DNA from: Mesorhizobium sp. SARCC-RB16n
GTDB taxonomy: Bacteria; Pseudomonadota; Alphaproteobacteria; Rhizobiales; Rhizobiaceae
Length of the DNA: 64,000 bases
Direction of reading: 5' to 3'
Assembly (NCBI RefSeq): GCF_008520305.1
Contig: NZ_ML703278.1
Location: 61,799 to 125,798, forward strand
Shown here: positions 604-22,585 of the stretch, piece after piece
Position numbering within the stretch: the first letter of the stretch is position 1
How the letters are laid out: every line of letters begins with the position of its first letter
The notes under the pieces: generated by a model
Told to the model about the DNA's origin: nothing
The model's database searches: none
Seen by the model: the letters and a program-made list of their open reading frames with translations, nothing else
Program-made: the position numbers and the translations under genes

Positions 604-627
604 TATACCTCATATACATGGTGTCAA
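604..627 (-). promoter_or_regulatory. Promoter with GntR-type operator (site E) for the MmgE/PrpD gene
   Basis: On the minus strand TTGACA (627-622) is followed after 4 bp by the 14-mer GTATATGAGGTATA (617-604), which covers the spacer and -10 area. The 14-mer differs at only two central bases from the elements at 2824-2837 and 22563-22576. It lies 37 bp upstream of the MmgE/PrpD start. Assignment to the GntR/HutC regulators of the island is inference. Confidence 0.6.
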
Positions 628-709
628 TCTCTGGAGGAAGAGGCGAGTCAATCTGGCATTGGAGTTCCGAAAAATCCCATGCACCGATCTCGCCACAGCG
701 CCACAGCGT

Positions 710-868
710 TTGGCGGGAACGCGGACCAACGAGAACCCCAATCGGGTGCTGCGCCAGTACTTTTCGAAGGGTGCGAACCTGAGCGCTGAGGCGATCGCAG
801 CCGTTGCTGCAACCCTCACAACGCGGCTGAGAAAAACTCGCTGGAAGACCCCGGCCGAGGCGACATGG
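710..868 (+). pseudogene. IS30-family transposase remnant (C-terminal end)
   Basis: Translation in the frame of position 560 gives GTRTNENPNRVLRQYF followed by SKGANLS and later TRLRKTRWKTPAEA. This is the conserved C-terminal block of IS30-family transposases (GT(R)ENxNGLLRQYFPKGT...RPRKTLGWxTPAE). The catalytic DDE part is absent upstream and the frame continues into unrelated sequence, so this is a short decayed fragment. Confidence 0.6.
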
Positions 869-877
869 CCGAGTGAA

Positions 878-1095
878 ACTATCCGTTACGACGACCGTTC
901 CACCCAATATGCCTCCGAACTTTGGCATCCTCACGTTACCAGGCAGGCATGGGCCGCGTCGGCGATTATGATAGTGCAAAGGCGCGCAGGACCAGCTGCT
1001 GGCTCTCGCCCCCAACCGATGACGCCCCTCAGCGCATCAGCGCTTTCGGCGATATAGTGTACAATACGCAGCGCCTGCATTACGCGCTCGGCTCA
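878..1095 (+). pseudogene. IS3-family OrfB remnant (frameshifted)
   Basis: In one frame the sequence reads DDRSTQYASELW, matching the DRGSQYAS motif of IS3-family DDE transposases. In the next frame it reads GDYDSAKA (compare GNxYDNAKAES) and then VYNTQRLHYALG (compare VYNxxRLHSALG). The motifs come in the correct order but in different frames, so the gene is dead. It directly follows the IS30 fragment, showing nested IS decay between the MmgE/PrpD and GntR genes. Confidence 0.6.
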
Positions 1096-1218
1096 TCCCG
1101 GAGGAACACTAACAGAAGGCACGACAAAGGCAGCATAAGGCTGCTCATGAGAAGTGTGCGCCATTTAGCGGAGTCGGTGTACCATCGATTCAAATCTCAG
1201 CCTAACCACCCATCCGGG

Positions 1219-1342: not shown

Positions 1343-2083
1343 ATGGCCACCTCAATGTTTCGGGCGTCCGCATCTCTACACGAGTCAGTACGCGAGGAGA
1401 TCCAACGGCGCATCACCAACGGAGCCTATCAGCCCGACGCCCTTATCCCCTCCACCGTCGTGCTCGCAGCAGAATTCGGTGTTAGTCCTATCACCATAAA
1501 GCGTTCCTTGCGCGATCTGCAGGCCGCAGGAGCTTTGGTTTCAATCGCCGGAAAAGGCACCTATGTAAAGAAGCGGACGCGCGTCCTGCGCACGCTTGAT
1601 ATGTCCAAGCTTTCGTTCGAGGCCGCGACGATCCAACTTCTATCCATCACGCGTGAGAAAATTTCAGACCCCACTATGAGAGCCTTCGATCCGCCTCTGG
1701 AGGCAATGCTCTGTGTCCGCAAGACTATTAATCTAGAGGGCGCGCCGTTTATGTACGACGCCACTTACGTCTCATCACATGTAGGCGAGGAAATCATCGA
1801 GGAGTTCGGGGAACGATTCGTTGTTCAGGCGCTGGAGCGTCACAACATCAATGTCGTCAATACGGACCTCATCATCGATGCAGCCCCAGCTGTCGGCAAG
1901 GTCGAGGAGGTGTTCGGCATTCCAACAGGCTATCCGATGCTCCGCCGTTTCTACAAATTTACGACAACCAACCCCGCAGTTAGTTGCTATGGCGTTGTCC
2001 AAGCCCCCTTTGACCAATTTGCCTGTACTATAAGTATTCCTGGGAATCGTGCATCGGCAAGCCACAGGAAGATCAAGAAGTGA
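1343..2083 (+). CDS. GntR family transcriptional regulator, HutC/UTRA subfamily (copy 1)
   Basis: 246 aa. The N-terminal winged helix-turn-helix (about residues 8-75: ASLHESVREEIQRRI, then FGVSPITIKRSLRDLQ and the wing GKGTYVKKR) is typical GntR. The rest fits an effector-binding UTRA domain, including DGAPFMYDATY-like and GYPMLRRFYKFTT segments. The protein is a close paralogue of the GntR at 14783-15568, and the start was chosen by aligning the two N-termini and by GAGCGGGG 6 bp upstream; an in-frame ATG at 1337 is the alternative. It faces the Pot-type transporter operon and probably represses promoters carrying the TATACC-N-GATATAC element. The inducer is unknown. Confidence 0.85.
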   Translation: MATSMFRASASLHESVREEIQRRITNGAYQPDALIPSTVVLAAEFGVSPITIKRSLRDLQAAGALVSIAGKGTYVKKRTRVLRTLDMSKLSFEAATIQLLSITREKISDPTMRAFDPPLEAMLCVRKTINLEGAPFMYDATYVSSHVGEEIIEEFGERFVVQALERHNINVVNTDLIIDAAPAVGKVEEVFGIPTGYPMLRRFYKFTTTNPAVSCYGVVQAPFDQFACTISIPGNRASASHRKIKK

Positions 2084-2968: not shown

Positions 2969-4030
2969 ATGAAAAAATCTATCTCAGTCTCACGCCGCAC
3001 GGTGCTGTGGGGCCTAACCGGTGTACTGGCCGCGCCGGCAGTTATGCGGGCTACAAGCGCGATGGCAGATTCAGGGTCGCTGACGTTCACGGGATATGGT
3101 GGCTCCTACCAAGACGCCGTGGCAAAGGCCGTCATCACACCCTTCACGGAAGAAACCGGCATCAAGGTCAATGTCGTCCCTGCGCCAGACTTGGCCAGAG
3201 TGAAGGCTCAGCAGCTTGCAGGGAATGTTGAGTGGGACGTTTTCGACGGCGCAAGCTCGGAAGGCGCCACCGGTTCGAAAGACGGCTTGTGGGAGCAGTT
3301 GGATCTTTCTAGCTTCGATGTCGCCGACTTGGCAGTCGCTCCGACGAACGAGGTCGTGCCTTGGGGTATATACGCCGGTGGTGTCGCATGGGATCCAACG
3401 AAGTTTGACGCAGGTAAGCATCCGTCTACCTTTGCCGACCTGTTCGACGTCGCGAAATACCCCGGACGCCGCACTCTTTTCCTCAATGGTCCCGTCATGA
3501 CGCTGGAGGCCGCGCTACTTGCGGATGGAGTATCGCCAAAGGATGTTTATCCTCTAGACTTGGATCGTGCCTTCAAGGCGCTTGATCGCGTCAAGGCGAG
3601 TATTCCCTCGTGGCCCGCTACAAGCACCCAGACGATCTCCCTCGCACAGAAAGGTGAAGTCGACTTTTGCTGCACCTTTGCCAGCCGCGTTAAGGCCACG
3701 AACCAACCAGGCGGGGGCGCACCTTTGGCCTTCTCCTTTGAGCAGAACCTCTTGGATTCGGAAATTCTGACGGTGATCAAGGGGGGCCCTAACAAGGCGA
3801 ATGCGATCAAGTTTGTCGCTTACTGTCTGCGGCCTGAGGTCCAGGCGCGGCTTAACAATCAGCTGGGAGGCGTTCCTGTCTCCAAAAAAGCACGACCGAT
3901 GTTGTCCGAAGAAGTGCGGAAGTGGCAGCCGGATTACGAAAACCCCCGCAACCTCTTCATTGATCCATCCTACTGGCAGGCCAACAATGCTGCGGTGAGT
4001 GCGCGGTTCAAGGAATGGACGGTGGGCTGA
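2969..4030 (+). CDS. ABC transporter substrate-binding protein, spermidine/putrescine (PotD) type
   Basis: 353 aa periplasmic binding protein. The N-terminus SRRTVLWGLTGVLAAPA is a twin-arginine (Tat) type signal, followed by a mature PotD-like fold that opens with LTFTGYGGSYQDA and contains VPWGIYAGGVAWDP. AAGGGGAAG sits just upstream of the ATG. It is the first gene of a four-gene operon with two permeases and an ATPase, expressed from the operator-bearing promoter at 2812. A stable stem-loop follows the stop codon. In this family ligands range from polyamines to opines and other small amines or acids. The ligand cannot be read from the sequence, but the neighbouring peptidase and amidase genes suggest an N-containing compound. 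Confidence 0.88.
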   Translation: MKKSISVSRRTVLWGLTGVLAAPAVMRATSAMADSGSLTFTGYGGSYQDAVAKAVITPFTEETGIKVNVVPAPDLARVKAQQLAGNVEWDVFDGASSEGATGSKDGLWEQLDLSSFDVADLAVAPTNEVVPWGIYAGGVAWDPTKFDAGKHPSTFADLFDVAKYPGRRTLFLNGPVMTLEAALLADGVSPKDVYPLDLDRAFKALDRVKASIPSWPATSTQTISLAQKGEVDFCCTFASRVKATNQPGGGAPLAFSFEQNLLDSEILTVIKGGPNKANAIKFVAYCLRPEVQARLNNQLGGVPVSKKARPMLSEEVRKWQPDYENPRNLFIDPSYWQANNAAVSARFKEWTVG

Positions 4031-4039
4031 TTCCATCAT

Positions 4040-4073
4040 TGTGTAGGACGGGCTAATGGGCCCGTCCTACACA
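4040..4073 (+). promoter_or_regulatory. Intercistronic stem-loop (14-bp perfect stem)
   Basis: TGTGTAGGACGGGC (4040-4053) pairs perfectly with GCCCGTCCTACACA (4060-4073) around a 6-nt loop. It lies 10 nt after the binding-protein stop and 25 nt before the permease start. There is no U-tract, so it probably acts as an mRNA-stabilising or attenuating hairpin that keeps binding-protein levels above permease levels, as in many ABC operons. Confidence 0.7.
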
Positions 4074-4098
4074 AGTCGACACCTCTCGAAGGACGGTC

Positions 4099-4926
4099 AT
4101 GAACATGACTAGCAGCATTCGGGCGACCGCCATTTTCATGTCGCCAGCGGCACTGATTGCCATTTTTATTGTGATGCCGCCTCTATTATATGTTGTCTAC
4201 ACCAGCGTCAATGGACTGGCTTTTTCTCTGGATTTATACGCCGACGTCGTGGCGAGTAAGCTGTTCAGACAGACACTGATAACGACGTTCGTCATTTCCG
4301 GTATATCCTGTTTCGTAAGCTTAGTCTTGGGGTTCGTGGTAGCGCTCCATCTCGCTAGTCAGCCGGCGCGGCGACGGGCGATTCTGCTCGGCCTCGTCCT
4401 CCTTCCTCTTTGGACGAGTATCCTGGTGAAATGCTTCGCGTTTATGGTTCTTCTTGGACGCGAAGGGGTTATCAACAGCATTCTTAGTTGGGCGTTCGAT
4501 GCACACATTCAACTGCCGATGATCCTCAATCGTATTGGCACTTTAATTGGAATGATTAACTGGCAAGTTCCGCTCGTCGTTTTACCAATCCTTGCCAGCC
4601 TCCTTGCAATCGATGAGGCAGTTTACCGGGCGGCTAGCATTATGGGAGCCAAGCCAGCCCGTATATTTTGGACTGTCACCGTTCGTTTGAGCTTGCCGGG
4701 CGTCTTAGCTGGCCTTTTGAGTATCTTCGTGATGTCTTTGGGCTCATTCATGGTTCCGGCCTTGCTTGGAGGTCCGAAAGATCTGATGTTGTCGAACTTG
4801 GTTGATTACTATAGCCGGCAGGTACTTGATTGGCCCCGAGCTTCGACCATCAGTGTAATCCTTTTCGCTATATCTGTGAGTTTTGCCGCCCCGTTGGCGC
4901 TCTGGCGCCGCAGCCGAAGGATATAG
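4099..4926 (+). CDS. ABC transporter permease, PotB type
   Basis: 275 aa, strongly hydrophobic with about six membrane segments. The cytoplasmic EAA-type loop EAVYRAASIMGAKPARIFWTV is a little modified and contacts the ATPase. The family is the binding-protein-dependent inner-membrane component of PotB/PotH type. AAGGA lies 6 bp before the ATG. It follows the hairpin and is 9 bp upstream of the second permease, so the two are co-translated. The partner subunits are the permease at 4936, the ATPase at 5791 and the binding protein at 2969. Confidence 0.87.
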   Translation: MNMTSSIRATAIFMSPAALIAIFIVMPPLLYVVYTSVNGLAFSLDLYADVVASKLFRQTLITTFVISGISCFVSLVLGFVVALHLASQPARRRAILLGLVLLPLWTSILVKCFAFMVLLGREGVINSILSWAFDAHIQLPMILNRIGTLIGMINWQVPLVVLPILASLLAIDEAVYRAASIMGAKPARIFWTVTVRLSLPGVLAGLLSIFVMSLGSFMVPALLGGPKDLMLSNLVDYYSRQVLDWPRASTISVILFAISVSFAAPLALWRRSRRI

Positions 4927-4935
4927 GAATCGCAA

Positions 4936-5748
4936 ATGACCGACATTATAGATGATCCACTCCAGCGCCGTTATCGCGCAGTCGGCACAGCACTGGCCGT
5001 GAGCGTTTACGTCTTTCTTTTATCTCCATTGGTAATTACAATTCCAATGGCGTTTGGCACCGCAAATACTCTTACCTTTCCGCCAACCGAATTCTCTCTC
5101 GACCTTTTCAGGACATTTTTCAACTCACCTGGCTGGGTGAACCCGCTTCTCAATAGCATTAAAATTGCGTTAGCAACTACGTCCCTGTCGCTTTTTGCCG
5201 GAACGCTTGCCGCGTACTGGCTAGTCCGCCGAGAGTTCCTTGGCCGAGCGCTGATTACTGGCGTTATCATGAGTCCGCTTATCGTGCCGTCAGTGATTTC
5301 CGGGCTAGGTCTATACCTGTATTTTTCCTACTTCAGGATTAACTCGTCGACACTCTCAATAGTGCTCGGTCACATTATGGTGGTTCTTCCGTTCGTGGTC
5401 GTCATGATTATGGCCGGAATGAACAAGTTGGATAGAAATCTTGAATTCGGCGCGGAATTGATGGGAGCGGGGACGATCCGAATGTTCGTAACAGTGGTTC
5501 TTCCCCAACTCGTTCCGTCACTCGTCAGCGCTGCTCTTTTCGCCTTTCTGTCGTCGTTCGATGAGTTCATTCTTTCCTGGTTCCTGAGCGGACCCGATAC
5601 GATCACTCTGCCTGTTAGAATGTACAACGCTCTCAACTGGGAAGTGTCTCCAGTAATTGCCGCCGTTTCGACGTTAATGATGGCGCTTTCCTTGGTGGTC
5701 TGCGTCGCCGCGATCAGCTTGCGAAAAGCCACACCAGCAGACGGCTGA
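4936..5748 (+). CDS. ABC transporter permease, PotC type
   Basis: 270 aa inner-membrane protein with about six hydrophobic segments. The EAA-like loop reads EFGAELMGAGTIRMFVTVVLPQ and is followed by a segment with SSFDEFILSWFLSG, typical of the PotC/PotI permease type. AGGA precedes the ATG. It is the second membrane subunit of the Pot-type importer and pairs with the upstream permease as a heterodimer. The operon order binding protein, permease, permease, ATPase is common for opine and polyamine transporters of rhizobia. Confidence 0.87.
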   Translation: MTDIIDDPLQRRYRAVGTALAVSVYVFLLSPLVITIPMAFGTANTLTFPPTEFSLDLFRTFFNSPGWVNPLLNSIKIALATTSLSLFAGTLAAYWLVRREFLGRALITGVIMSPLIVPSVISGLGLYLYFSYFRINSSTLSIVLGHIMVVLPFVVVMIMAGMNKLDRNLEFGAELMGAGTIRMFVTVVLPQLVPSLVSAALFAFLSSFDEFILSWFLSGPDTITLPVRMYNALNWEVSPVIAAVSTLMMALSLVVCVAAISLRKATPADG

Positions 5749-5790
5749 TCATTCAGACCCATCGGGGAACAGAAGTAGAGGATTTAAAAC

Positions 5791-7014
5791 ATGATGCCGT
5801 TACCAAGAGAAGAGCGAACTCAGCAAGTCGCCCGAGATGACAGCAGGCCCAACGGACTAGGGGAAGACGTAGTGTCGGCTGCAAGGTCGAATCGTCGGGA
5901 TGGATCTGCAGGCCTGGTAGCAAAAAACCGGTCGGAGAACGACCCTAAATATGCAATAGAGCTCAAAGACATATCGAAATACTTCGGTTCATTAGCTGCG
6001 CTCCATCCCACCAAGCTGGCGGTGAACAGGGGGGAGTTCCTAACCTTGTTAGGTCCTTCTGGATCAGGGAAGAGCACGCTCCTTAACCTGATCGCAGGCG
6101 GAAGTGGGCCGTCGACTGGAAGCATTTTCCTGGACGGGCGGGACATCACACGCATGCCACCGCGAGAAAGGGGGATCGGGATGGTTTTCCAGAATTATGC
6201 TCTGATGCCGCACATGACGGTTTTCGAGAACGTGGCTTATCCCTTGCGTGCGCGTCATTTTGACAGGAGCGCCATCCGGGCGAAGGTGACTGAGGCCCTA
6301 GACCGTGTCGGACTGCGCGGTCTTGAGGATCGCAAGCCGCGCCAACTATCGGGGGGGCAACAGCAACGCGTTGGGATTGCGCGCTGCATCGTCTATGCGC
6401 CGGCAATAATCATGATGGACGAGCCGTTAGGTGCGCTCGACAAGAACCTCCGAGAGCAAATGCAAGGGGAGATCAAGCGTCTTCACAAGGACCTCGGAAC
6501 GACGTTCATTTATGTAACGCATGATCAAGAAGAAGCTCTAAACATGTCTGACCGCATCTGCCTAATGAGTTTGGGTGCGATCGCGCAACTAGGTACACCT
6601 GACGACCTGTATTTCCGGCCACGGAGTCGCTTCGTTGCGGAGTTTATTGGCGAATCGAACATAATCACTGGGCGAGTCGAAGGTAATGGACGGATGCTGG
6701 TTTCCGGCAACGAGACGTTTTTGGTGCCGCACGAAAAGCGATCTACTGGATCAGAACTGACAGTAATGGTTCGCCCCGAACGAGTTCGGATTTGCGGCAG
6801 TGCCGAGTCAGTCACGACGGGAGAAAATGTGCTGGATGGTGAAGTCGTTGGGACTGCATTTGTCGGCGGGACCACGCGGGTTGCAATACAATGTGCGAAT
6901 GGTCTGCACATGACAGCTAAGATGATGTCGGATCGTCTCGCGACGAGGCCTGCGGCTGGGGACCAAGTGCGCGTGTGCTGGTCGTCAATCGACACTGTCA
7001 CGCTCGATAGTTGA
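5791..7014 (+). CDS. ABC transporter ATP-binding protein, PotA type, with long N-terminal extension
   Basis: 407 aa. About 55 polar residues precede the ABC domain, longer than usual for this family. Walker A is GPSGSGKST, the signature is [10 protein letters not shown], Walker B is IIMMDEP and the switch histidine is in YVTHDQEE. A C-terminal TOBE-like regulatory domain (MVRPERVRI onward) follows. It energises the importer formed by the two upstream permeases. An internal start after the extension is possible, but GAGG before the ATG at 5791 supports the long form. The downstream M20 peptidase is on the same strand with a 146-bp gap. Confidence 0.9.
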   Translation: MMPLPREERTQQVARDDSRPNGLGEDVVSAARSNRRDGSAGLVAKNRSENDPKYAIELKDISKYFGSLAALHPTKLAVNRGEFLTLLGPSGSGKSTLLNLIAGGSGPSTGSIFLDGRDITRMPPRERGIGMVFQNYALMPHMTVFENVAYPLRARHFDRSAIRAKVTEALDRVGLRGLEDRKPRQLSGGQQQRVGIARCIVYAPAIIMMDEPLGALDKNLREQMQGEIKRLHKDLGTTFIYVTHDQEEALNMSDRICLMSLGAIAQLGTPDDLYFRPRSRFVAEFIGESNIITGRVEGNGRMLVSGNETFLVPHEKRSTGSELTVMVRPERVRICGSAESVTTGENVLDGEVVGTAFVGGTTRVAIQCANGLHMTAKMMSDRLATRPAAGDQVRVCWSSIDTVTLDS

Positions 7015-7160
7015 TTGTTGTTCACTTGGGCACTTCTCCGGGTTAGGAACGGCAGGTTCTTCCGGCAAAGTCTCAGCTTTACACCAGCGAAAGAACTACC
7101 GCCCAGCAAGTCCGGCGCGCTGACTGCGATCGTTCACATTTGAAACTACGGGACATAGAA

Positions 7161-8306
7161 ATGAGTGAAATCACTGCGCTTATGGCGCCCTTCGACACCC
7201 AGGCGCTTCTGGATGAAGTTAAAAATTGGGTGGAAATCGAGACGCCAACCGGCGAAGACGCGAAGGTAAACTGCCTGCTCGACAAGATCGAGAGCGACGC
7301 GAAAGTGGCCACTGCGCGAACCAAGCGCTTTCCTGGCCGAAACCGCTATGGCGACAAGCTCATCGTGAGCTCTCCTTGGGGCGGAGAGGATCCCGGCATC
7401 CTCGTTGTGAGCCATGTTGACACCGTTCATCCGGTTGGGACGCTGACAACCACGCTTCCTTTCCGCATCGAAGGGGACAGCGCTTATGGGCCGGGTATCT
7501 ACGACATGAAGGGAGGTGCAGTAATAGCATTCCTTGCGCTCTTGCATCTAATTCGTAATGGCGAGGCCACCAAACTGCCGATTCGCCACCTGTTCGTTCC
7601 AGACGAAGAAAGCGGTAGCCCGACGTCGCGGGACTTGATTGAAGAGGAAGCACGCCGCGCACGGTATGTCTTGGTTACTGAGCCCGCACGCGACGGCGGG
7701 AAAATCGTGACTTCGCGCCGTGGTAAGACAGCAAGCTTTGAACTGAAGGTAACTGGCCGAGCCTCCCACGTACTTAAGCCAGCGGCCGGCCGCAGCGCGG
7801 TACGTGAACTCGCAAGGCATATCCTCGACATTGAAGAGATGAGTGACTACGAAAAGGGTCTCATCCTAAACGTTGGCATCATTGGCGGTGGAACAAGTTG
7901 CAGCATTATACCCGACTCTGCGTTCGCTAGTGTCGAAATGTTCGCATCTGACGTAGCGCTCGCGGACAAAGTAATCGAACGGATACGTTCGTTGAAATCC
8001 TATAGCACCGACGTGGCAGTTGAAGTCACAACACAGGTCGGAGGTCGGCCGGGATATGAGAAATCTCCTCAGATCGAAGCACTGTTTGAGCGTGCGCGTG
8101 CGTGCGCGGCGGAACTCGGGTTCGTGCTCGAAGGCGTAAATGGTGCAATTGGCTCAGACGCCAATTTCACAGCGCAGTTTGCGCCCACTCTCGACGGAAT
8201 GGGACCTGACGGCGATGGCGCACATTCTCATAACGAGCGGATTCTTATCCCGTCGCTCGTGCCACGAGCAATGCTATTGCTGCGTTTATTCCAAACTCTG
8301 GCTTAA
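7161..8306 (+). CDS. M20 family metallopeptidase (carboxypeptidase G2/ArgE/DapE type)
   Basis: 381 aa. Zinc-binding motifs of the M20 family are present in order: SHVDTVHPVG (His and catalytic Asp), GIYDMKGG (bridging Asp), PDEESGS (catalytic Glu-Glu pair), VTEPA (Asp/Glu ligand position) and a C-terminal GDGAHSHNE (His). A dimerisation domain sits in the middle. Members hydrolyse amide bonds of N-acyl amino acids or C-terminal glutamate. The start at 7161 is preceded by GGGA; a TTG 21 bp upstream is less likely. Its place after the Pot-type transporter suggests cytoplasmic hydrolysis of the imported compound. Confidence 0.85.
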   Translation: MSEITALMAPFDTQALLDEVKNWVEIETPTGEDAKVNCLLDKIESDAKVATARTKRFPGRNRYGDKLIVSSPWGGEDPGILVVSHVDTVHPVGTLTTTLPFRIEGDSAYGPGIYDMKGGAVIAFLALLHLIRNGEATKLPIRHLFVPDEESGSPTSRDLIEEEARRARYVLVTEPARDGGKIVTSRRGKTASFELKVTGRASHVLKPAAGRSAVRELARHILDIEEMSDYEKGLILNVGIIGGGTSCSIIPDSAFASVEMFASDVALADKVIERIRSLKSYSTDVAVEVTTQVGGRPGYEKSPQIEALFERARACAAELGFVLEGVNGAIGSDANFTAQFAPTLDGMGPDGDGAHSHNERILIPSLVPRAMLLLRLFQTLA

Positions 8307-8558
8307 TTCCGAAAGCGCAGTGGATCCGGGGCCCGTTCGCCGCCGACGGTCGCGCCGCTGCGAGCGCCTTACTGCCGGCCCACCAGGCATAGGCGCTCGC
8401 CTCAATCTTCATCGACCATCGACCCCATGACCTTAAGCATAGGTCGCAGACTCCGACGGACGAACTCCTTCAATCACGCAAGGCGGTCCCTACCGGCTTC
8501 CGATTACCCACATCGTCGGCGGGCCTATTGCTCCGTATGAATCTGCCGTGATTCTGTC

Positions 8559-8586
8559 CGTGACGCCGAATCACGGAGGCGTCACG
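8559..8586 (+). promoter_or_regulatory. Hairpin covering the transposase ribosome binding site
   Basis: CGTGACGCC (8559-8567) pairs perfectly with GGCGTCACG (8578-8586). The Shine-Dalgarno-like GGAGGC overlaps the right arm just before the ATG at 8588. Transcripts entering from outside would fold and hide the site, while a promoter inside the loop would escape. Such fold-back control is known for IS10 and IS50. Confidence 0.6.
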
Positions 8587-14643: not shown

Positions 14644-14782
14644 GTCGGGCCTCCTCATCTGCGGGAACGTTTGGTTAGAATTGTTAATCGGCTGCTGGAT
14701 GGCTAAAGTGGTGCCGCGCCCCCTTGGTGGAGTTCTGATGGCCCTAAGCGGGACGCCTAACCTGGCCCTTGTTGGCGACTCT

Positions 14783-15568
14783 CTAACTTAACGCACCATC
14801 ATTATTGACAGAGAAGTCGCCCGCGAGCCCGCTGCCCGAGTTTTTGCGGGCTTCCGGTACTGGGCTTGCCGGAAGACTTATCGAACAGGCGAGCTGATCG
14901 AACGGCGCCTGCACGACACCAAACACTGTCATCGACGAAGAACTGGTCGTGAATTTGTAGAACCGCCGCAGCATAGGGTAGCCGGAAGGAATGCCGAAAA
15001 TCTCCTCGACCTTTCCGAAGGCCGGGGCTGCGTCAATAATAAGGTCCGTATTTACGACGTCGATACCGTGACGTTTCAATGCAGTTGCAACGAAGACGTC
15101 TCCGAACTCCTCAATCATCTCATTGCTGACGTCCGAGGACAGATAGGTTGCATCGTACATAAACGGTGCACCGTCAGTATAAACGATCTTGCGTACGCAG
15201 AGCATTGCGTCGGTGGGCACATTGAATGAGCTCATCGCCGAATCCGAAATCTTCTCCCTCGTGATCGACTGCAACTGAATCGTTGCGCCTTCATAAGACG
15301 GCGACGAGATATCTAGTCGCCGCAAAATACGGGTGCGTTTCTTGACGTAGGTTCCTTTGCCCGCAACCGCCACCAATGCACCGGCTGATTGTAAATCACG
15401 TAAGGCACGTTTGATGGTAATTGGACTGACGCCGAATTCGTCTCCGAGCATAGCTGCCGATGGAATGAGAGCCTCTGGCTGATATGTTCCGTTTCTGATG
15501 CGAGCGAGAATCTCTTCGCGCACAGATTCGTGCAGTGACGCTGATGGCCGAAGCGGCGAATTAGTCAT
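14783..15568 (-). CDS. GntR family transcriptional regulator, HutC/UTRA subfamily (copy 2)
   Basis: 261 aa. The winged helix (ASLHESVREEILARI, FGVSPITIKRALRDLQ, GKGTYVKKR) and the UTRA domain (DGAPFMYDATYLS, GYPMLRRFYKFTT, GVVQAPFDQLACSI) closely match copy 1 at 1343-2083. The near-identity of the recognition helices predicts the same operator. AAGGAGAG lies before the ATG. The gene is divergent from the amino-acid-type permease operon, whose promoter B carries an operator-like element 110 bp away. It is probably a repressor released by a pathway intermediate. A C-terminal tail of about 20 residues is not shared with copy 1. Confidence 0.87.
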   Translation of the reverse strand: MTNSPLRPSASLHESVREEILARIRNGTYQPEALIPSAAMLGDEFGVSPITIKRALRDLQSAGALVAVAGKGTYVKKRTRILRRLDISSPSYEGATIQLQSITREKISDSAMSSFNVPTDAMLCVRKIVYTDGAPFMYDATYLSSDVSNEMIEEFGDVFVATALKRHGIDVVNTDLIIDAAPAFGKVEEIFGIPSGYPMLRRFYKFTTSSSSMTVFGVVQAPFDQLACSISLPASPVPEARKNSGSGLAGDFSVNNDGALS

Positions 15569-15679: not shown

Positions 15680-15708
15680 TTGACATGCTGGCATACCATG
15701 TATATTAT
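15680..15708 (+). promoter_or_regulatory. Promoter with GntR-type operator (site B) for the amino-acid-type permease operon
   Basis: TTGACA (15680-15685), exactly 17 bp, TATTAT (15703-15708). The 14-mer CATACCATGTATAT (15692-15705) begins 6 bp after the -35, as in the other sites. A short unassigned leader of about 135 bp separates it from the first permease. Confidence 0.65.
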
Positions 15709-15843
15709 TCTGTTTGCCTGTTCAAAGGGAAAGCCCGATGGAAGTCAACAGAACCGCCTCCTCGAAACGCCGGGCGGGGACGTTCATGGCACTGCCAGGA
15801 GCATTTGGGGCGACAATTAGCGGCAAGTTGCGGAGTAATGAGC

Positions 15844-16503
15844 ATGAGCTTTATCGAAATCGTGCTTGGCATCCTGCAGGGTGCCGACGTCACCGCAGAG
15901 GTAACCTTTTTTGGATTGCTATACGCCGTACCCTTTGCGGTCTTAGCAGGAGTGCTTCAACACTTCTCAACGGGCGCCGCCCGCTGGGCGATTACCGCAT
16001 TGATAGAGTTTTGGCGTAGCACGTCCGTGATTGTTCTCCTTTACGTCTTCTATTATTCGTTGCCAGCTTTTGGTATCGAGCTTTCGGCTGTTGCAGTAGG
16101 AGCTATGGTGCTTGGCTTGAACGCTGGAGCGTACTCGAGTCAATCTGTACGTGCAGCTCTGCAATCTCTTGATCGTGGGCAATGTGAAGCAGGACTGGCT
16201 TTGGGGTTGAATCGCTTTGCCGTCCTTAGGTGGATTGAGCTACCACAGGCCCTTCGAAAAATGATCCCAACGTTTGTCAACGAGGCCATCCAACTCATCA
16301 AGGGTACTGCGCTGGTCTCGCTCATCACACTGACAGACATGACGTTCCGAGCGAAGCAGATAGCTCAATCGACGTACGATCCGGTCGCCATCTACTCCGG
16401 GCTGCTGCTTTGCTATCTGATGGTTTGTTATCCCGTCACCCTGCTGGGCCGACATTTGGAGCGATCTACGGGCAAACTGGGGGAGCGTGTCAATGAGCTT
16501 TGA
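15844..16503 (+). CDS. Amino acid ABC transporter permease (HisQ/GlnP type)
   Basis: 219 aa membrane protein of the HisMQ family. The conserved loop reads GQCEAGLALGLNRFAVLRWI and is followed by LPQALRKMIPTFVNEAIQLIKGTAL, a family hallmark. GGAG sits 8 bp before the ATG at 15844; an ATG at 15838 is too close to that site, and a longer frame upstream lacks homology. It overlaps the next permease by 11 bp. It forms one half of the membrane channel for the binding protein at 12285-13142. Confidence 0.87.
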   Translation: MSFIEIVLGILQGADVTAEVTFFGLLYAVPFAVLAGVLQHFSTGAARWAITALIEFWRSTSVIVLLYVFYYSLPAFGIELSAVAVGAMVLGLNAGAYSSQSVRAALQSLDRGQCEAGLALGLNRFAVLRWIELPQALRKMIPTFVNEAIQLIKGTALVSLITLTDMTFRAKQIAQSTYDPVAIYSGLLLCYLMVCYPVTLLGRHLERSTGKLGERVNEL

Positions 16504-17155
16504 TCTTGCTTTCGCGGTCGAAATCATCCCTCGTGTCTTGGAAGGCATCGGAAACACCATATTGGTGGGTATACTCAGCTTTATCGGGGCAACCCTCCTC
16601 GGCTTTTTGTGGGAAATGCTTCGGCGCAGCAACCGGTGGGTGCGTCCCATAGTGCAGTTTTTGGTGGATGCGATCCGGTCAACCCCGGCGTTAGTCCAGA
16701 TCTACTTTTTGTTCTTTGTATTGCCGTATTATGGTGTTGTCCTGCCTGCGATCCTTGTTGGTATATTCGGCTTAAGCTTCTATTATTCGGGTTACATCTC
16801 GGAAGTATTCAAAGCTGGGATCGAGGCCGTGCCCGCTGGCCAGAGTGAAGCAGCACTCAGCTTGGGCTTAAATCGTTGGGACACGGTGATGTATGTTGTC
16901 GCGCCCCAGATGTTGCGAAATATCGCGGCACCGCTTGGCGCATACTCAATCGGCATACTTAAGTCCACTCCCTTGCTCGCGGTGATCGCGGTTCCTGAAA
17001 TGCTTGGCAGCGCGTTTGATGTGGCGTCAGACACGTATCGCTATGCCGAGCCCATGTTCATCGCAGGAGTTCTCTTCCTGCTCCTGGCGCTGATTGCGGC
17101 CTTCTTGGTGGGGACATTGGAACGGCGGCTCGGCTTGCTCGGCACGTCACATTAA
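16493..17155 (+). CDS. Amino acid ABC transporter permease (HisM/GlnP type)
   Basis: 220 aa HisMQ-family permease. The coupling loop is [20 protein letters not shown]-like, followed by [34 protein letters not shown]. The ATG at 16493 has GGGGGAG 7 bp upstream, better placed than the GTG at 16487, and overlaps the end of the preceding gene, indicating translational coupling. With the upstream permease it makes a heterodimeric channel. The ATPase begins 35 bp downstream. Confidence 0.87.
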
Positions 17156-17190: not shown

Positions 17191-17985
17191 ATGGAACCCG
17201 AACGTACAGAACGGAGAACCCTTGTGGTGGAGTTCACTCAGAAAGCTGACAGCAGAGCTGCGGTGTTGATCGAAGGCGTGTCAAAGTGGTTCGGGACATT
17301 TCAAGCGCTTGACAAGGTTAGCTTGAATGTTGCGGTTGGCGAACGGCTAGTGATCTGTGGTCCCTCAGGGTCAGGCAAATCGACCCTTATCCGCTGTGTC
17401 AATCAACTGGAAACACACGACGAAGGCCGCATCGTCGTCAGTGGGGCTGAACTACGACCTGGCATGAGGGGCTTGGCTGAAGTACGGCGTGATGTAGGAA
17501 TGGTCTTCCAGCAGTTTAATCTGTTCCCTCATTTAAGCGTTTTGGATAACTGCACCTTGGCGTTGCGACGAGCACGAAAGATCCCCAAGGATGCTGCCAA
17601 TCAAATCGCGATGGAAAAGCTCGAACGGGTTCACATCGCCGAGCAGGCCAAGAAGTATCCACGGCAGTTGTCAGGCGGTCAACAGCAGCGCGTTGCAATT
17701 GCTCGGGCGCTGTGCATGAAGCCCAAGATCATGCTGTTCGACGAACCCACTTCGGCGCTTGATCCCGAGATGGTAAAAGAGGTGCTGGATGTTATGACTG
17801 CGCTCGCCAAGGAGGGAATGACTATGATTTGTGTCACGCATGAAATGGGCTTTGCTCGTGAGGTGGCCGACCGCGTGGTATTTATGGACAAAGGGGCCAT
17901 TATCGAAGAAGCTGCGCCACAGAAATTCTTCGGAAACCCTGAGCACGACCGCACGAAGCAGTTCCTAAAGCAATTGTTGCACTAG
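17191..17985 (+). CDS. Amino acid ABC transporter ATP-binding protein (GlnQ/HisP type)
   Basis: 264 aa. Walker [11 protein letters not shown]-loop [14 protein letters not shown], signature [15 protein letters not shown], Walker [16 protein letters not shown] and switch VTHEMGFA are all intact. The PAAT-type motifs identify the polar amino acid family. GAGGAG precedes the ATG. It is the last gene of the three-gene operon under promoter B. The reading frame has about 25 extra residues before the first beta strand. Confidence 0.92.
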
Positions 17986-18133: not shown

Positions 18134-19694
18134 TAATTAGTCGTCCGTGAACAATGAAGTGGGTCAGGCTGCGCTGGATCTGGGGCGGCTTTGGAGTGCT
18201 GTGATGAGAAGCCACAAAAGCAGCCTGAACCATTTGATCAGGAGCGAGAAGTTGTAGCCGGCGGCGGCGAGGATGGCGTTGATGGCGTCGCCCTGTTCGC
18301 CGGCGAGGTAGTTGCGGCCCATGCGGTGCTCGGCCTTGATGTGGCCGATGACGGGTTCGACTGCCGATCGCCTGCGCATCTGACGCTTGATGGCAGGTGT
18401 GACGCGGCGCTTCTGGCCGGCGGTGAAGACCCTGAGCTTGTGGCTTTCAGGTGCGTTGTGGCCGCGATATCCGGCGTCGGCGAGGATGCGGCCGATTTCG
18501 TTGCCGATGGTCTTTTCCATGTCGGGGATAACGGTCGCGAGCGTATGGCCGTCATAGGGATTGCCGGGCAGTGCCTTAGCGTGCAGGGCGAACTGGCCGC
18601 CCTTCGAGCGTTCGAGCGTCGTGGCGATCGAGACCTTGACGCCGAACTCATAAGGGGCATGCGCCTTGCCCTTGCCGATGCACTCGACCTCATGGGCGTG
18701 CAGGCTGTAGATTTTGCGGCCGCGCTGGCGCTGACGTTGCTCCAGAACCGCCGAGGCCTGGTAGAGCGGCCACTTGAAGCTCGCCTCGAGGTCCGCTTGG
18801 CCGGCGATCCGGCGGGAGATGTCGCGAATGGTGCGGCCGAGATAGGTCTTGAGCTTGCGCAGCGCCTTGTTGGCCCGTTTGAACTGCTTGGCGTGCGCGT
18901 AGCGCTGGTGCTTGATCAGCGCCAGCTTGCCGACCCGCACGTAGGTCTGGCGCAAATCGAGCCCCGCCTTCTTCGCCAGCCGCACCAGCCGCTCGCGCGC
19001 CCGATTGACGAGCTTGGCGTCGGTGGGGAACATCACGTTCTTCGGCTGCACGGTCGTGTCGACGATCACCCGGCGCGTATCGGCCGGCTTCATCGCTCCG
19101 CTCTTGACCGCCACCGCCAGGCTTTCTTGCAGGAGCGCCGTGATCCGCTCCTCGCCCATGCGCTGGCGCCAGCGCGTCATCGATGAGCGCTCGAAGGAGA
19201 GCTCGTGGCGGAAGAACTCTTCGCCGCACAGATACTGGAAGTAGGGGTTCTCCATCCAGCGGGCGCACAACTCCTCGTCCGACAAGTCGAAAGTGTGCTT
19301 CAGGATCGCAAGGCCCGCCATCAGTCGCGTCGGTAAGGGCGGCATGCCAGGACCGTCCGAATAGACCGCGCCGAAACGCTCCTCCAGCACCGGCCAGTCG
19401 ATCGCCTGCGCCAGCCGCACCAGCTCGTGCTTCATGTTGATGATCTGATCGAGCCTGGAGCGGAACAGGTCCTGCTCTCCCGTCTCGCGCTTCTCGCGTG
19501 GCCTGGACATTCGCCGTCCCTCGATTCGCCCGCCAAAACGAGTGAATCACGCATCGGCGCACAAGGGAATCGTCAAATCGAATTGCAAGAAAACGGCCAC
19601 CAGACACCGCAAATGTTGCAACGCTATTCCCGCATTCCTCACCAATTAGGAAACCAGATCAAAGCCTTGCGAATAGTTCACCGGCGACTAATTA
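18134..19694 (-). mobile_element. IS5-family insertion sequence, about 1.56 kb, apparently intact
   Basis: The left end TAATTAGTCGTCCGTGAAC (18134-18152) is the imperfect inverse of the right end GTTCACCGGCGACTAATTA (19676-19694), with 16 of 19 positions pairing. The palindromic TAATTA at both ends could be the IR tip or part of a target duplication. A full-length transposase lies between. The GC content is much higher than in the flanking transporter genes. Confidence 0.75.
18164..19510 (-). CDS. IS5-family transposase
   Basis: 448 aa, full length. It has the N-terminal DUF772-type domain (LMAGLAILKHTFDLSDEELC, PYFQYLCGEEFF) and the DDE catalytic core with VIVDTTVQPKN (first Asp), ILADAGYRG (second Asp) and VIGHIKAEHRMGRNYL (the Y/HxxxRxxxE-like catalytic Glu region). 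No stop or frameshift is visible. It may still be active. A long open frame on the opposite strand is only its complement. Confidence 0.9.
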   Translation of the reverse strand: MSRPREKRETGEQDLFRSRLDQIINMKHELVRLAQAIDWPVLEERFGAVYSDGPGMPPLPTRLMAGLAILKHTFDLSDEELCARWMENPYFQYLCGEEFFRHELSFERSSMTRWRQRMGEERITALLQESLAVAVKSGAMKPADTRRVIVDTTVQPKNVMFPTDAKLVNRARERLVRLAKKAGLDLRQTYVRVGKLALIKHQRYAHAKQFKRANKALRKLKTYLGRTIRDISRRIAGQADLEASFKWPLYQASAVLEQRQRQRGRKIYSLHAHEVECIGKGKAHAPYEFGVKVSIATTLERSKGGQFALHAKALPGNPYDGHTLATVIPDMEKTIGNEIGRILADAGYRGHNAPESHKLRVFTAGQKRRVTPAIKRQMRRRSAVEPVIGHIKAEHRMGRNYLAGEQGDAINAILAAAGYNFSLLIKWFRLLLWLLITALQSRPRSSAA

Positions 19695-20223
19695 ATACCT
19701 ACCCTGGAGGTAGGCATGCCCGTAGCAGCTCACCAACGCAAATCATCGACCGCTATCCGACCCATCTTGGCGCAGGTTTCGTCTCCCGAGCGCAAGGGTC
19801 TTGACCGACGATCGCGTGCAACACTTCAAGACCGGCTGTTCGCACCGTGGCCGAGCAGATCAAGGCCAGGTCCTCGCCCAATTTCGAGGCGCGAGCAATG
19901 CCGCAGGTGGCCGAGGGATCGAGCACTAAGCGTTCGCCCTCGATACTTCTCCGGCCAGGGGGCGCACCGGCCGTTTTCGTGAACGGTGGTAAGCGCGGAT
20001 CCTAGGAGCCACAGCCTGCGCCGGTAACTGAGACCCTCGAGGAGATCTATCGGTCGTTTCAGAACAGCCGAGACGTCGTCTCACGCGATTGGCTGCGACA
20101 ATCCCACATCTTTTTTGTTATCGTTGTTTTCACTCTTACCCGGCACTTAGCTCGTGGCCGCGGCTCAGAGGCGAACAGAGCACCTCGATCATAGCCCAAC
20201 ACGAGATCGGAAGAGATACGGAC
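19695..20223. other. Gap without an intact gene
   Basis: About 530 bp between the IS5 element and the deacylase stop. One minus-strand stretch (about 19790-19980) stays open and reads LDPSATCGIARASKLGEDLA, which looks protein-like, but I cannot name a family and it has no start. It may be the relic of a gene broken by the IS. Confidence 0.4.
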
Positions 20224-21303
20224 TTAAAATTTTGAAGCGTGTGATGGCCTGTCATTCTCTGTCTCCGAAATTAGACCAAAGAGCGCATCGCCGGTTTCTG
20301 TCATAGTCGGGAAACGCCTGAAGGCCACAATTCCATCTGTTGAAAACTCGAGCACACATGGTTTCGCAACCATATCATCGGTCCGATATACAAATCCTGC
20401 CTTCTGACCCTTCGCCACCTTATCACCAGGCCTTACAAGTGGTTCAAAGAGCCCGTCGCAGGGCGCGTATATCGTATGGTTCGGGCCTAGGGAGCGAGCA
20501 AACCGAGTGGTGGGATTCGGGTCGTCGCCGAGGTCGGGTGCTATGCCGAAGTCGCGAAGCACTCGACGGATACCTTTCTCGGCTATCGACAGACCAACTT
20601 CTGAAAGGGTTGGTCCGCCGCCCAGTTCGGTTGTTATCGCCGCGATACCTCGCTGCTCCGCCGCAGCGTACAGAGTAGATTTTCCGCCTCCGCCGCTCCC
20701 ATTTGTTATAGCACTAAAAGGGGCCCCGAAACTCTTTAAGAGTCGCCGAATTGACTCTGACTCGGCGGGTCCTCGTCCAGCATGGGCGAGCGCCATTGGG
20801 AGATAATCCAATGAAGTACCGCCCGAATGCAAATCGATTACAAGATCGACTATCGGAAATAACACATGCGCAACGAAATACGCTATTGCAGCAGTCGGCC
20901 CGTCAGTCAAGCTTCCGGGGAAGAGACGGTTTAGATTACCGCCGTCAAGAGGCGAATTACGCCGACCAGCTTTCACAGCCGGTTGATTAAGAGCAGGCAA
21001 AATAATAACCCGCCCCTCGAGACGCGTGGTTGGTAACTCGTGGATCAGCCTCCGAAGGGCAATCTGTCCCTCATATTCGTCACCGTGCGTTCCTGCTGTC
21101 AAAAGCGCGGTCGGTCCTCCTCCCCCATTGCTGACACAAATGATCGGCACTGGAATCCATCCATAAGCAGATTTGTCGGAAGAATAGGGGACACGCACAA
21201 AGTCCGTCTGAAGACCGGGCCCGCCGAAATCAACTCCTGTCCAAACAGGCCCCTGGATCGGATCTTCTTTCATGACCGTTGTAGAAGAGACGGAGTTCGG
21301 CAT
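20224..21303 (-). CDS. Succinylglutamate desuccinylase/aspartoacylase family deacylase (DoeB/EutE-like)
   Basis: 359 aa zinc-dependent deacylase. Metal ligands are in GTHGDEYEGQ (His about 73, Glu about 76) and DLHSGG (His about 159). The substrate-site segment KAGRRNSPLDGGNLNRLFPG is characteristic. The N-terminal SAYGWIPVPI motif and overall layout resemble the N-acetyl-diaminobutyrate deacetylases of ectoine catabolism (DoeB/EutE), judged from memory of the family. It starts directly after the M24 gene stop (TAAATG) with GGAG upstream, so the two are translated as an operon. The likely role is removal of an N-acyl group from an amino or diamino acid in the cytoplasm. Confidence 0.8.
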   Translation of the reverse strand: MPNSVSSTTVMKEDPIQGPVWTGVDFGGPGLQTDFVRVPYSSDKSAYGWIPVPIICVSNGGGGPTALLTAGTHGDEYEGQIALRRLIHELPTTRLEGRVIILPALNQPAVKAGRRNSPLDGGNLNRLFPGSLTDGPTAAIAYFVAHVLFPIVDLVIDLHSGGTSLDYLPMALAHAGRGPAESESIRRLLKSFGAPFSAITNGSGGGGKSTLYAAAEQRGIAAITTELGGGPTLSEVGLSIAEKGIRRVLRDFGIAPDLGDDPNPTTRFARSLGPNHTIYAPCDGLFEPLVRPGDKVAKGQKAGFVYRTDDMVAKPCVLEFSTDGIVAFRRFPTMTETGDALFGLISETENDRPSHASKF

Positions 21304-22479
21304 TTAGAGCTCCACTGACGGCAATTTCGCGGGAGAGATCGCACTAAGGAATTCGGGCCCGGTTGGAGTGACCCTAAACACCTCCTCCACCTGAAACATT
21401 CCGCCAGCAATCTCAATCTTAGGTTCGACATGCAAAACCATGTCTTCTAAAATGACCTCTGCGGAGCCAGTCATCAACGATGGAGGTTCCGTTAACGCGA
21501 TGCCGGAACCATGGCCCACCCGTCCAGCAATCGCGAGTTTACCACCCTTGGAGAAGTCCCGAGCCGACCAGAGAGTTTCGAACAGCGCGAAAGCGTCGTG
21601 CCCGGTCATGCCTGGACGAATGCCTTCCGCGAGGCGAAGAGTGACATCCCGCACAAAAGCATAAATATCTTCCTGCTCGGGCGTCGGCTTACCCACCTTG
21701 GCTATCCTGTTCAGATCGCTAATCTGGTCGCCGCGGCGCACACCCATGTCCACCCAGATAAAGTCGTCATTTTCGAGTTTGCGGTCGGCATTCGGCTGAC
21801 CATAGCTGGCTCCGCCGTGTCCGAAGCGCACCGGAATCCAATCAACGCTATCTGCACCGAGCCCGATCATCCGGATCTTAAGGAGTTGTCCGAATTGATA
21901 TTCGCTAATGCCGGAGCTGATATCGCTTAAGCCGCCGAAAAATGAATCTGTCGCGATTTGGCATGCGGCGCGCTTTGCTTCAAATTCGTGCATGCTTTTG
22001 ACAATGCGCTGACGCCAGATCAACTCTGCGGCATCTGCTAGTCGCATGTGATGAGGGTCCTCTCGCATGCGATCCACAAGCGCAAGAGATCCTCTACCAT
22101 TCATATCGCGACCGTAATCGATCCCAATAAGAGAACTTCTTGGCAGATCCTTCAAAATGTTTTGGATGGCATCCAGAGCAGCGTCCGTAAAGCCGTGGTA
22201 GAAGATTGGGTGCACGTCCGCGTTGATGTTACAGTAGTCGTTACGTTTCTCCCCGATGTTGAGCACGATTGAAATCCCGGGGGTGTCGCGCTGAGCAATC
22301 GCCATTAACGGGCGGGTGTCCGAAAGCCAAAAAAGACTTCTGTAACCGGTGTAGTATTCGAAGTTATCTTTTGACGTGATCAAGATAGCGTCCATTTCCA
22401 CGTCTGCCATGTTCTTCTTTAGTTGAGTGATTCGCCTGCTGACTTCGAGCGTGCCCGGCCAAATTGGTGCACTTAACAT
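21304..22479 (-). CDS. M24 family metallopeptidase (Xaa-Pro peptidase/creatinase fold)
   Basis: 391 aa. A creatinase-type N-terminal domain (LITSKDNFEYYTGYRS) precedes the pita-bread domain. All five metal ligands of the family are present: Asp about 244 (WVDMGV), Asp about 255 (ISDLNR), His about 323 (VGHGSGI), Glu about 352 (HVEPK) and Glu about 365 (QVEEVF). It should therefore be a dinuclear metal enzyme, unlike ectoine hydrolase EutD/DoeA, which as I recall lacks several ligands. The partner gene is a DoeB/EutE-like deacylase. GGAG lies 7 bp upstream of the ATG. The promoter is probably the minus-strand one at site C. Confidence 0.82.
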   Translation of the reverse strand: MLSAPIWPGTLEVSRRITQLKKNMADVEMDAILITSKDNFEYYTGYRSLFWLSDTRPLMAIAQRDTPGISIVLNIGEKRNDYCNINADVHPIFYHGFTDAALDAIQNILKDLPRSSLIGIDYGRDMNGRGSLALVDRMREDPHHMRLADAAELIWRQRIVKSMHEFEAKRAACQIATDSFFGGLSDISSGISEYQFGQLLKIRMIGLGADSVDWIPVRFGHGGASYGQPNADRKLENDDFIWVDMGVRRGDQISDLNRIAKVGKPTPEQEDIYAFVRDVTLRLAEGIRPGMTGHDAFALFETLWSARDFSKGGKLAIAGRVGHGSGIALTEPPSLMTGSAEVILEDMVLHVEPKIEIAGGMFQVEEVFRVTPTGPEFLSAISPAKLPSVEL

Positions 22480-22549
22480 TGCTAGCTCCTGTAAAAATTG
22501 ACGCCGGAGGCTCTACCCCCCAAGGACTTCGACAGCTCCCGCTGCCGGC

Positions 22550-22585
22550 TTGACAGGCCTAATATACCAGATATACCTTCACCGA
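22550..22585. promoter_or_regulatory. Divergent promoters sharing one GntR-type operator (site C)
   Basis: The 14-mer TATACCAGATATAC lies at 22563-22576. On the plus strand TTGACA (22550-22555) and TATACC (22572-22577) point to the PLP enzyme gene. On the minus strand TTGATC, 17 bp and TATATT point to the M24/deacylase operon. The element is the exact reverse complement of site A. One bound repressor could therefore shut both units. Confidence 0.65.

Follow-up and report, generated by a model that had tools for sequence, protein, structure and literature searches.

An island of transport and catabolic genes in a 64 kb plasmid-like region of Mesorhizobium sp. SARCC-RB16n (this whole stretch is referred to as the window) carries one shared palindromic element at five of its promoters and encodes two GntR-type regulators. 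The element, a dyad of the form TATAC-YWR-GTATA, recurs upstream of the same genes in relatives among alpha- and betaproteobacteria far above chance. Judged from sequence comparison, the island is very probably an uptake-and-breakdown module regulated by its own HutC-type GntR protein through this dyad, with the promoters occluded until a ligand arrives. The sites, their conservation, their overlap with promoters and the gene content of the island are observed features of the DNA.

The dyad in the window and in its relatives

All five TTGACA-plus-element promoters proposed in an earlier note on this DNA are present at the positions claimed there. Scores given here come from a symmetrised 19-bp matrix built from the five window sites alone, which was used for all counts. 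Site A (601 to 619, dyad centre 610; TTGACA at 627-622 on the minus strand; 21.7 bits) is centred 43 nt upstream of the ATG of mmgE1, the first of two MmgE/PrpD genes. Site B (2822 to 2840, dyad centre 2831; TTGACA at 2812-2817 on the plus strand; 21.9 bits) precedes a Pot-type importer operon and site C (13191 to 13209, dyad centre 13200; TTGACA at 13219-13214 on the minus strand; 17.7 bits, the lowest of the five) precedes the gene of an EhuB-like solute-binding protein. Site D (15689 to 15707, dyad centre 15698; TTGACA at 15680-15685 on the plus strand; 22.1 bits) is located in the divergent region between the regulator gene gntR2 and a permease operon. Site E (22560 to 22578, dyad centre 22569; TTGACA at 22550-22555 on the plus strand; 25.0 bits) separates the genes of an M24 hydrolase and a deacylase from that of a pyridoxal phosphate (PLP) enzyme. 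A promoter-like pair read from the minus strand, TTGATC-17-TATATT, extends over the same dyad, which would serve the M24-deacylase genes and the PLP enzyme gene together.

Exactly five of the 32 TTGACA boxes in the window are followed by ATATAC or GTATAT within 24 nt downstream and these are sites A to E, whereas 100 second-order Markov simulations of the window averaged 0.06 such boxes, with never more than 1 in a run. The five sites are also the window's top five matrix places, with scores from 17.7 to 25.0 bits, followed by an overlapping register of site C (14.9 bits) and by position 1234 (13.0 bits). The core had been described as GTATA-N4-GTATA, and this pattern is indeed found at three window places (A, B and E) with 0.01 expected. 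Sites B and E are identical in 14 of 14 bases, one of them inverted, and A matches in 12 of 14; the labels attached to these matches in the earlier note (A and C for the full match, E for the partial one) were wrong. Sites C and D do not fit the direct repeat. The dyad TATAY-N3-RTATA fits all five sites with some mismatches, and it is the dyad that relatives conserve.

A weak sixth operator/promoter-like element is located upstream of gntR1 at 1234 to 1262 and accounts for the 13.0-bit match to the five-site matrix. It resembles the GntR/EhuB divergent promoters of loci L002, L009 and L034 and may be a decayed operator copy at a place where an EhuB gene once stood. A tblastn search with the EhuB proteins of five relatives found no EhuB remnant near it.

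Loci for the comparative scan were found via the GntR protein in plasmids and genomes and were supplemented by neighbouring or gene-linked stretches. Matches within 12 bp of a better match were merged and duplicate 44-nt contexts removed. The scan proposed in the earlier note finds the operator before the same genes far above chance, with 38 merged sites of at least 15 bits in 24 loci (645,028 bp) against a mean of 1.08 and a maximum of 3 in a third-order Markov null of 12 passes. Sites at this threshold are present in 18 of the 24 loci and absent from L003, L007, L015, L035, L039 and L041. The count leaves out short GntR stretches (L016-L030), loci fetched for the exact motif (L031, L032 and L033), L038 (identical in its sites to L008), L043 (part of that plasmid) and L042, L044 and L046 (no site of at least 14 bits); L048 and L049 were fetched later and also stand outside it.

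The sites are concentrated at gene starts. Module genes were recognised by tblastn, and 32 of the 38 sites fall within a zone around their starts that extends 450 bp upstream and 70 bp into the gene, a placement rule met by 16.4% of all positions (binomial p about 7e-20); the module-gene queries include genes of relatives (PLP_II, Lrp, mdeB, ilvB, porin, GHMP kinase and others). Of the remaining six, L045 23122 and L047 11169 each precede an annotated MmgE/PrpD gene by about 25 nt, and L008 17036 is an additional site before the permease operon. L040 13743 precedes, by about 240 nt, what we read from the open reading frames as an oligopeptide-type ATP-binding cassette (ABC) operon, and L001 13222 and L005 23850 have no assigned gene. 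Locus L040, from a Burkholderiaceae genome, has operators at 7925 (porin) and 13743 (ABC operon), and a third type of transporter seems to have joined the regulon there. All five window sites are matched in other genera: site A (MmgE) in L010, L045, L047 and weakly in L006 (12042, 13.4 bits), site B (Pot operon) in L001, sites C and D (EhuB and GntR/permeases) in many loci and site E (M24) in L001, L008, L010, L012 and L014. In Neorhizobium galegae VafX2 (L010 5764-17242) the PLP enzyme, EhuD and MmgE match in pieces, as if decaying; the operators there are still strong.

With the matrix unchanged, 11 further loci yielded 14 matches of at least 15 bits compared to 0.4 expected, a set that includes three motif-selected loci (L031-L033, the first of them without a module gene) and L038, a repeat of L008. 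The seven loci not chosen by motif (L034-L037 and L039-L041; 129,906 bp) contain 8 matches against 0.125 expected, with a maximum of 1 in 40 passes. We reject a chance origin of the sites on the basis of the simulations, the held-out loci and the module-gene placement, and this comparative footprint strongly supports the shared regulon that had been claimed from the window.

Exact patterns were also searched. In nine plasmid records and three genomes, together about 31 Mb, TATACYWRGTAT has 17 occurrences. All but one fall within module loci, the exception being on a small Bradyrhizobium contig without a recognised module gene. The pattern is present in 10 of these 12 records or genomes, with 21 strand matches versus 6 for a reversed control pattern. 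A GntR of at least 45% identity is encoded in seven of 646 sampled genomes, two of which (G002 and G003) were chosen as sample centres and were known carriers of the exact pattern; G058, with a 32% homologue, was counted among the others. An exact TATACYWRGTATR match is found in four of the seven versus 58 of the 639 others (Fisher p = 0.002). As a genome-wide marker of the regulator the exact pattern is weak, and position counts more than presence.

The 38 sites define the consensus dyad WRRTATACYWRGTATAYYW, or TATAC-YWR-GTATA. The inner C is present in 32 and the inner G in 34 of them, and R and Y predominate at the outer positions (G in 19, C in 16). Conserved inner C/G combined with loose outer positions identify the element as a dyad and not a direct repeat, and GTATA-N4-GTATA was consequently rejected as the true core. 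An overlapping second dyad is located 9 bp away at several loci. In 11 of the 38 sites, and likewise at window sites B, C and E, the start of TTGA[CT] is located exactly 19 nt ahead of the dyad centre; the distances are 17 and 18 for A and D. The right half TATA occupies the -10 position with a 16-bp spacer in 11 of the 38, a location that favours repression by occlusion. In 23 sites no TTGA[CT] is present at -24 to -15 on either strand and the dyad is retained.

The regulator likely to bind the dyad

The window encodes two regulators within 22 kb, GntR1 (1343 to 2083, plus strand) and GntR2 (14783 to 15568, minus strand, divergent from the permease operon). In both, the GntR helix-turn-helix domain (PF00392) and the UTRA domain (PF07702) score above the gathering threshold, consistent with the GntR/HutC assignment made earlier. 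The description of the pair as near-identical was too strong, as they share 71% identity over 235 amino acids. The nearest solved relative of the window GntR is YvoA/NagR.

A GntR gene is present in 17 of the 18 operator-bearing loci, often divergent from the operator, and the eighteenth (L047) is another stretch of the plasmid represented by L011. All 17 of these regulators have a lysine in the recognition helix, within the motif T-I/V-K-R-A/S. The GntR of Paraburkholderia phenoliruptrix (L007) has glutamate in place of this lysine (IERA versus IKRA), and the 40 kb around its gene contain no site of 15 bits, the best scoring 11.2. The module is found 120 kb off on the same plasmid (L048), with EhuB at 40%, the permeases and ATPase at 71-74%, M24 at 64% and the deacylase at 62% identity, and the 31 kb around these intact Ehu-M24-deacylase genes contain no site of even 10 bits. 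This could indicate a regulator replacement in P. phenoliruptrix. The Ehu-M24-deacylase-PLP module of this plasmid (L048 6228-17255) adjoins LysR- and ArgP-type regulators. Sinorhizobium meliloti M270 (L049), with a Lys-type GntR, has a 20.3-bit site between ehuB and M24. A distant second GntR of Paraburkholderia phymatum (L015) is missing the lysine and has no operator nearby. The co-occurrence of gene, recognition helix and operator makes GntR the likely binder of the dyad.

Genes of the island, proposed mechanism and alternatives

The genes downstream of the sites encode two importers and a set of catabolic enzymes. The Pot-type ABC importer, consisting of a binding protein, two permeases and an ATPase (2969 to 7014, plus strand), has a counterpart in Bradyrhizobium locus L001 that is 64-69% identical and has its own operator. 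It is followed by an M20 metallopeptidase/deacylase gene (7140 to 8306, plus strand; PF01546), probably the last gene of the Pot operon, which has a 60% identical relative with an operator upstream in L012. The target of site A, mmgE1 (1 to 567, minus strand), runs off the window and its product is 68% identical over 171-173 amino acids to that of mmgE2 (10340 to 11836, minus strand; PF03972/PF19305). The latter is perhaps co-transcribed with the EhuB gene across a 449-nt gap, the gene order EhuB-MmgE-PLP being found in L005. EhuB (12285 to 13142, minus strand, start re-set from 13244) passes TIGR02995 with 272.3 bits versus a cut-off of 190.9, and its closest solved relative is 2q88. Three aromatic residues are altered relative to 2q88 and are still aromatic (PPF to PPW, EYG to EFG and GLF to GLY), with the following arginine retained; these positions may line the ectoine pocket.

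A carbon-nitrogen hydrolase of the nitrilase superfamily (13747 to 14658, minus strand; PF00795) is encoded downstream of GntR2 on the same strand. The Ehu-like permeases and ATPase are encoded on the plus strand by ehuC (15838 to 16503), ehuD (16487 to 17155) and ehuA (17191 to 17985). For the first permease gene we prefer the ATG at 15838 because the listed start at 15685 overlaps the -35 box and relatives fit the later start better. The permease/ATPase scores are below their cut-offs (196.9 versus 205.2 bits for TIGR03003 and 290 versus 345 bits for TIGR03005), EhuD being just under its NCBIfam cut-off. To the left of site E, on the minus strand, are an AstE/AspA deacylase gene of DoeB/EutE-like type (20224 to 21303; PF24827) and an M24 creatinase/prolidase-family hydrolase gene whose product is distantly DoeA-like (21304 to 22479; PF00557/PF01321). 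The deacylase is clearly related to DoeB by sequence, DoeB 6twm/6twl being among its best solved relatives; its score falls short of equivalence to DoeB. On the other side is the PLP enzyme gene (22756 to 23985, plus strand), whose product belongs to the Cys/Met metabolism family (PF01053) and has beta/gamma-lyase relatives. For a role as canavanine gamma-lyase, a literature search gave nothing tying this activity to the cluster.

Insertion sequences with matches to IS4-family and IS5-family transposases interrupt the island at 8470-9964 and 18139-19594. A Ti-type conjugative transfer region adjoins the island at 26400-36400, with matches to TraA, TraG, TraB, TraR, TraH and TraF. On Ti plasmids opine regulators control traR; the five-site matrix finds no operator of at least 10 bits in this conjugation region.

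From these features we infer how binding, repression, operon structure, ligand and chemistry may fit together. The GntR/HutC-type regulator, represented here by two paralogues, would bind TATAC-YWR-GTATA, probably as a dimer. Because the dyad lies between -35 and -10 and supplies the -10 at several promoters, the regulator most likely blocks RNA polymerase when bound. The UTRA domain would sense a small ligand that probably enters through the Ehu-like and Pot-type transporters, whereupon the regulator would be released and the promoters would fire. Site A would drive mmgE1, B the pot-M20 genes, C ehuB and perhaps mmgE2, D ehuCDA on one side and gntR2-nitrilase on the other, and E the M24-deacylase genes and the PLP enzyme gene in opposite directions. 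As ligand, an N-acylated amino acid that is ectoine-like and of diamino or homoserine-derived type is the probable candidate.

Several observations weigh against this interpretation. Within the window, mmgE2 has no operator of its own of at least 10 bits, gntR1 has no strong site beyond the 13.0-bit element and site C is weak at 17.7 bits. Lys-type GntRs in L039, L041 and L044 have no 15-bit site in 11.8, 19.0 and 21.6 kb, respectively, L041 having a 14.2-bit site before M24, and L003, with a fragmented GntR, has no site of 15 bits. The lysine-to-glutamate change is found on one independent plasmid only and represents one clear loss. Three of the seven GntR-positive sampled genomes have no exact TATACYWRGTATR and 58 of the 639 others do. 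With respect to chemistry, the deacylase scores 240.1 bits against the TIGR02994 cut-off of 402.7 for DoeB N-acetyl-diaminobutyrate deacetylase, and M24 scores 54.7 bits against the NF038259 cut-off of 575 for DoeA ectoine hydrolase. The operator geometry is also unusual. In the accessible part of a paper on the family, the HutC consensus is NyGTMTAKACNy with GT and AC 4 nt apart in most sites, and FarR, NagQ and SdhR are listed as exceptions (PMC4494728), compared to AC-N3-GT in TATAC-YWR-GTATA across our 38 sites. Given the listed exceptions, this lowers how typical the operator is and not the membership of the protein in the subfamily.

The pathway may be more ordinary than proposed. Plain ectoine/hydroxyectoine utilisation (Eut/Doe) under a different regulator, which concerns the chemistry and not the operator, would explain an EhuB above its cut-off, an EhuD just below, a DoeB-like deacylase and an M24 hydrolase. 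We consider it rather unlikely, as M24 and the deacylase are far under the ectoine equivalog cut-offs, the PLP enzyme belongs to the Cys/Met family or, in relatives, to a threonine-synthase-like family, and the regulator is HutC-type and not MocR-type like EnuR. Metabolite data lend this explanation some weight: in the accessible text of PMC5979394, ectoine (log2 fold change -1.4) and 5-hydroxyectoine (-1.2) are among 70 metabolites lowered in rpoN-mutant compared to wild-type P. phymatum nodules.

It is improbable that the dyad, as a true operator, belongs to another regulator (Lrp/AsnC, a response regulator or a global factor) with GntR as a mere neighbour. Lrp-type regulators accompany ectoine genes, and Lrp/AsnC genes are present in several loci (e.g. 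L001, L006, L008, L036, L040 and L041). However, an Lrp query at E 1e-10, Lrp being the only such regulator searched across loci, returned nothing in the operator-bearing loci L002, L005, L009, L013 and L034, where GntR is present. The GntR gene itself adjoins the operator in many loci, and on the plasmid where lysine is changed to glutamate in GntR, the module is present and operators are missing. Least probable is that the sites are alike through copied promoters or shared ancestry with only -35 and -10 under constraint and no operator function. In its favour, the window has duplicated genes (two GntR, two MmgE), and 11 of the 38 sites have their right half-site as the -10 after a 16-bp spacer. 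Constraint on -35/-10 does not, however, account for the left half TATAC or the central YWR, both part of the conserved 13-bp dyad, and the 23 sites without TTGA[CT] keep the dyad. It is also shared by alpha- and betaproteobacteria but is gone from the P. phenoliruptrix module.

Nodule expression, linked synthesis genes and known systems

The GntR is rare in the sampled genomes (seven of 646, as given above). The M24 enzyme (E at most 1e-40) is found on 11 of 72,556 plasmid records, all 11 of which also encode a GntR of 40-80% identity, as does one further C. taiwanensis record. The carriers belong to Sinorhizobium, Neorhizobium, Mesorhizobium, Bosea, Paraburkholderia and Cupriavidus, and their sources are a legume or its nodule (6 of 11), soybean rhizosphere soil (1) or not named (4). 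In P. phymatum STM815, the orthologues Bphy_7490 to 7505 are lowered in nifA-mutant nodules according to the accessible text of PMC8305402, with log2 fold changes of -2.18 for GntR, -2.32 for the binding protein, -5.14 and -5.83 for the permeases, -6.13 for the ATPase, -6.59 for M24, -3.19 for the PLP enzyme and -5.97 for MmgE/PrpD. No tag for the deacylase or for mdeB was found there; the authors take the transporter as one for lysine/arginine/ornithine uptake, and the accessible main text of PMC5979394 contains none of the searched Bphy_747/749/750 tags. The nifA and rpoN changes are whole-nodule effects of lost nitrogen fixation, possibly indirect ones. In Rhizobium leguminosarum, a pea-specific plasmid-borne GntR is needed for full symbiosis (PMC7950203, accessible part) and doeB- and doeD-like genes are present on the symbiotic plasmid (PMC10228743, accessible part). 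The term M24 in the accessible text of PMC12337268 and PMC4053727 is a module or strain label and not this hydrolase. Titles and abstract openings of the literature searched, with subscription papers mostly beyond reach, name neither the cluster nor the operator. The principle of regulation is ordinary; no description of the module or of its nodule link was found in that literature.

Many module plasmids additionally carry genes for a GHMP kinase, an SbnA/cysteine-synthase-like PLP enzyme and a GNAT acetyltransferase, the last either fused to the PLP enzyme or encoded next to it. Of 21 plasmid records matched by the GNAT at E 1e-10, 13 reach at least 44% identity; nine of these are among the 11 M24 plasmids and four are not. 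Kinase and synthase accompany the GNAT on seven of the nine, the N. galegae matches being in pieces. The two S. meliloti stretches encode the GNAT alongside a synthase of weak similarity (32%), with no kinase match; the M24 plasmids without GNAT are those of P. phenoliruptrix and Bosea. A run of kinase, synthase, major facilitator superfamily (MFS) transporter, GNAT and MmgE is found in Mesorhizobium AR07 and INR15 (L045 19095-33629 and L047 7089-12547). In AR07 the catabolic module follows this run with one Fic-family gene between, representing a candidate synthesis-plus-catabolism island. The plasmid of Mesorhizobium 131-3-5 encodes EctB, a diaminobutyrate aminotransferase (L042 11893-13984), as well as a PLP-GNAT fusion and GHMP kinase fragments. 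In the P. phymatum nifA-mutant nodules the kinase (-8.24) and the synthase-GNAT (-6.85) are lowered alongside the catabolic genes (PMC8305402, accessible text). A strict scan for sigma-54/NifA promoters returned 6 sites, none before an annotated gene, and a scan allowing one mismatch returned 16, of which only the one before asnB of L012 precedes an annotated gene, with TGT-N10-ACA located upstream; neither scan placed a sigma-54 promoter before the kinase or synthase genes.

These linkages allow a tentative extension, which we regard as possible and no stronger: the GntR regulon could be the catabolic half of a new rhizopine-like system, in which a nodule-made, N-acetylated homoserine- or diamino-acid-derived compound is recognised by the GntR switch in kin. 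The GHMP kinase and PLP/GNAT proteins, in some cases with an MFS exporter, would make the compound in nitrogen-fixing nodules. The Ehu-like importer, the M24/DoeB-like hydrolases and the PLP lyase would feed it into 2-oxobutyrate/propionate metabolism, and the window would represent a catabolic-only stretch beside Ti-type conjugation genes. We keep this extension tentative because the window has no match to the kinase or the synthase-GNAT and the compound is putative. Should the linked genes indeed produce the ligand, this compound would add a new kind to the nodule opines and offer a new lever on rhizobial competition. The comparison of relatives in any case provides a precise operator for a plasmid-borne catabolic regulon common to alpha- and beta-rhizobia, and nodule expression in P. 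phymatum offers an independent handle on its purpose.

Compared to known systems, the predicted regulation resembles that by HutC-subfamily GntR repressors such as NagR/YvoA and DasR, which have the same GntR helix-turn-helix and UTRA domains, YvoA/NagR being the best solved relative. For this family, operators that are likewise catabolic and often divergent are reported, as are additional half-sites located 7-12 nt away from the centre of the site (PMC4494728, accessible part), and the present operator would add a non-canonical geometry to it. The ectoine system of S. meliloti and others (ehuABCD, eut/doe) shares the EhuABCD-like importer and the pair of M24 and DoeB-like deacetylase. In contrast to it, the island has sub-cut-off enzymes, other PLP enzymes, MmgE/PrpD, a second (Pot-type) importer and a HutC-type regulator. 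The rhizopine mos/moc systems, which are based on L-3-O-methyl-scyllo-inosamine, have a make-and-eat gene pair on nodulation plasmids. Relatives of the island may have a similar layout, as they share plasmids with a candidate synthesis set, genes of both being NifA-dependent in P. phymatum nodules; this candidate set differs in consisting of GHMP kinase, PLP synthase and GNAT.

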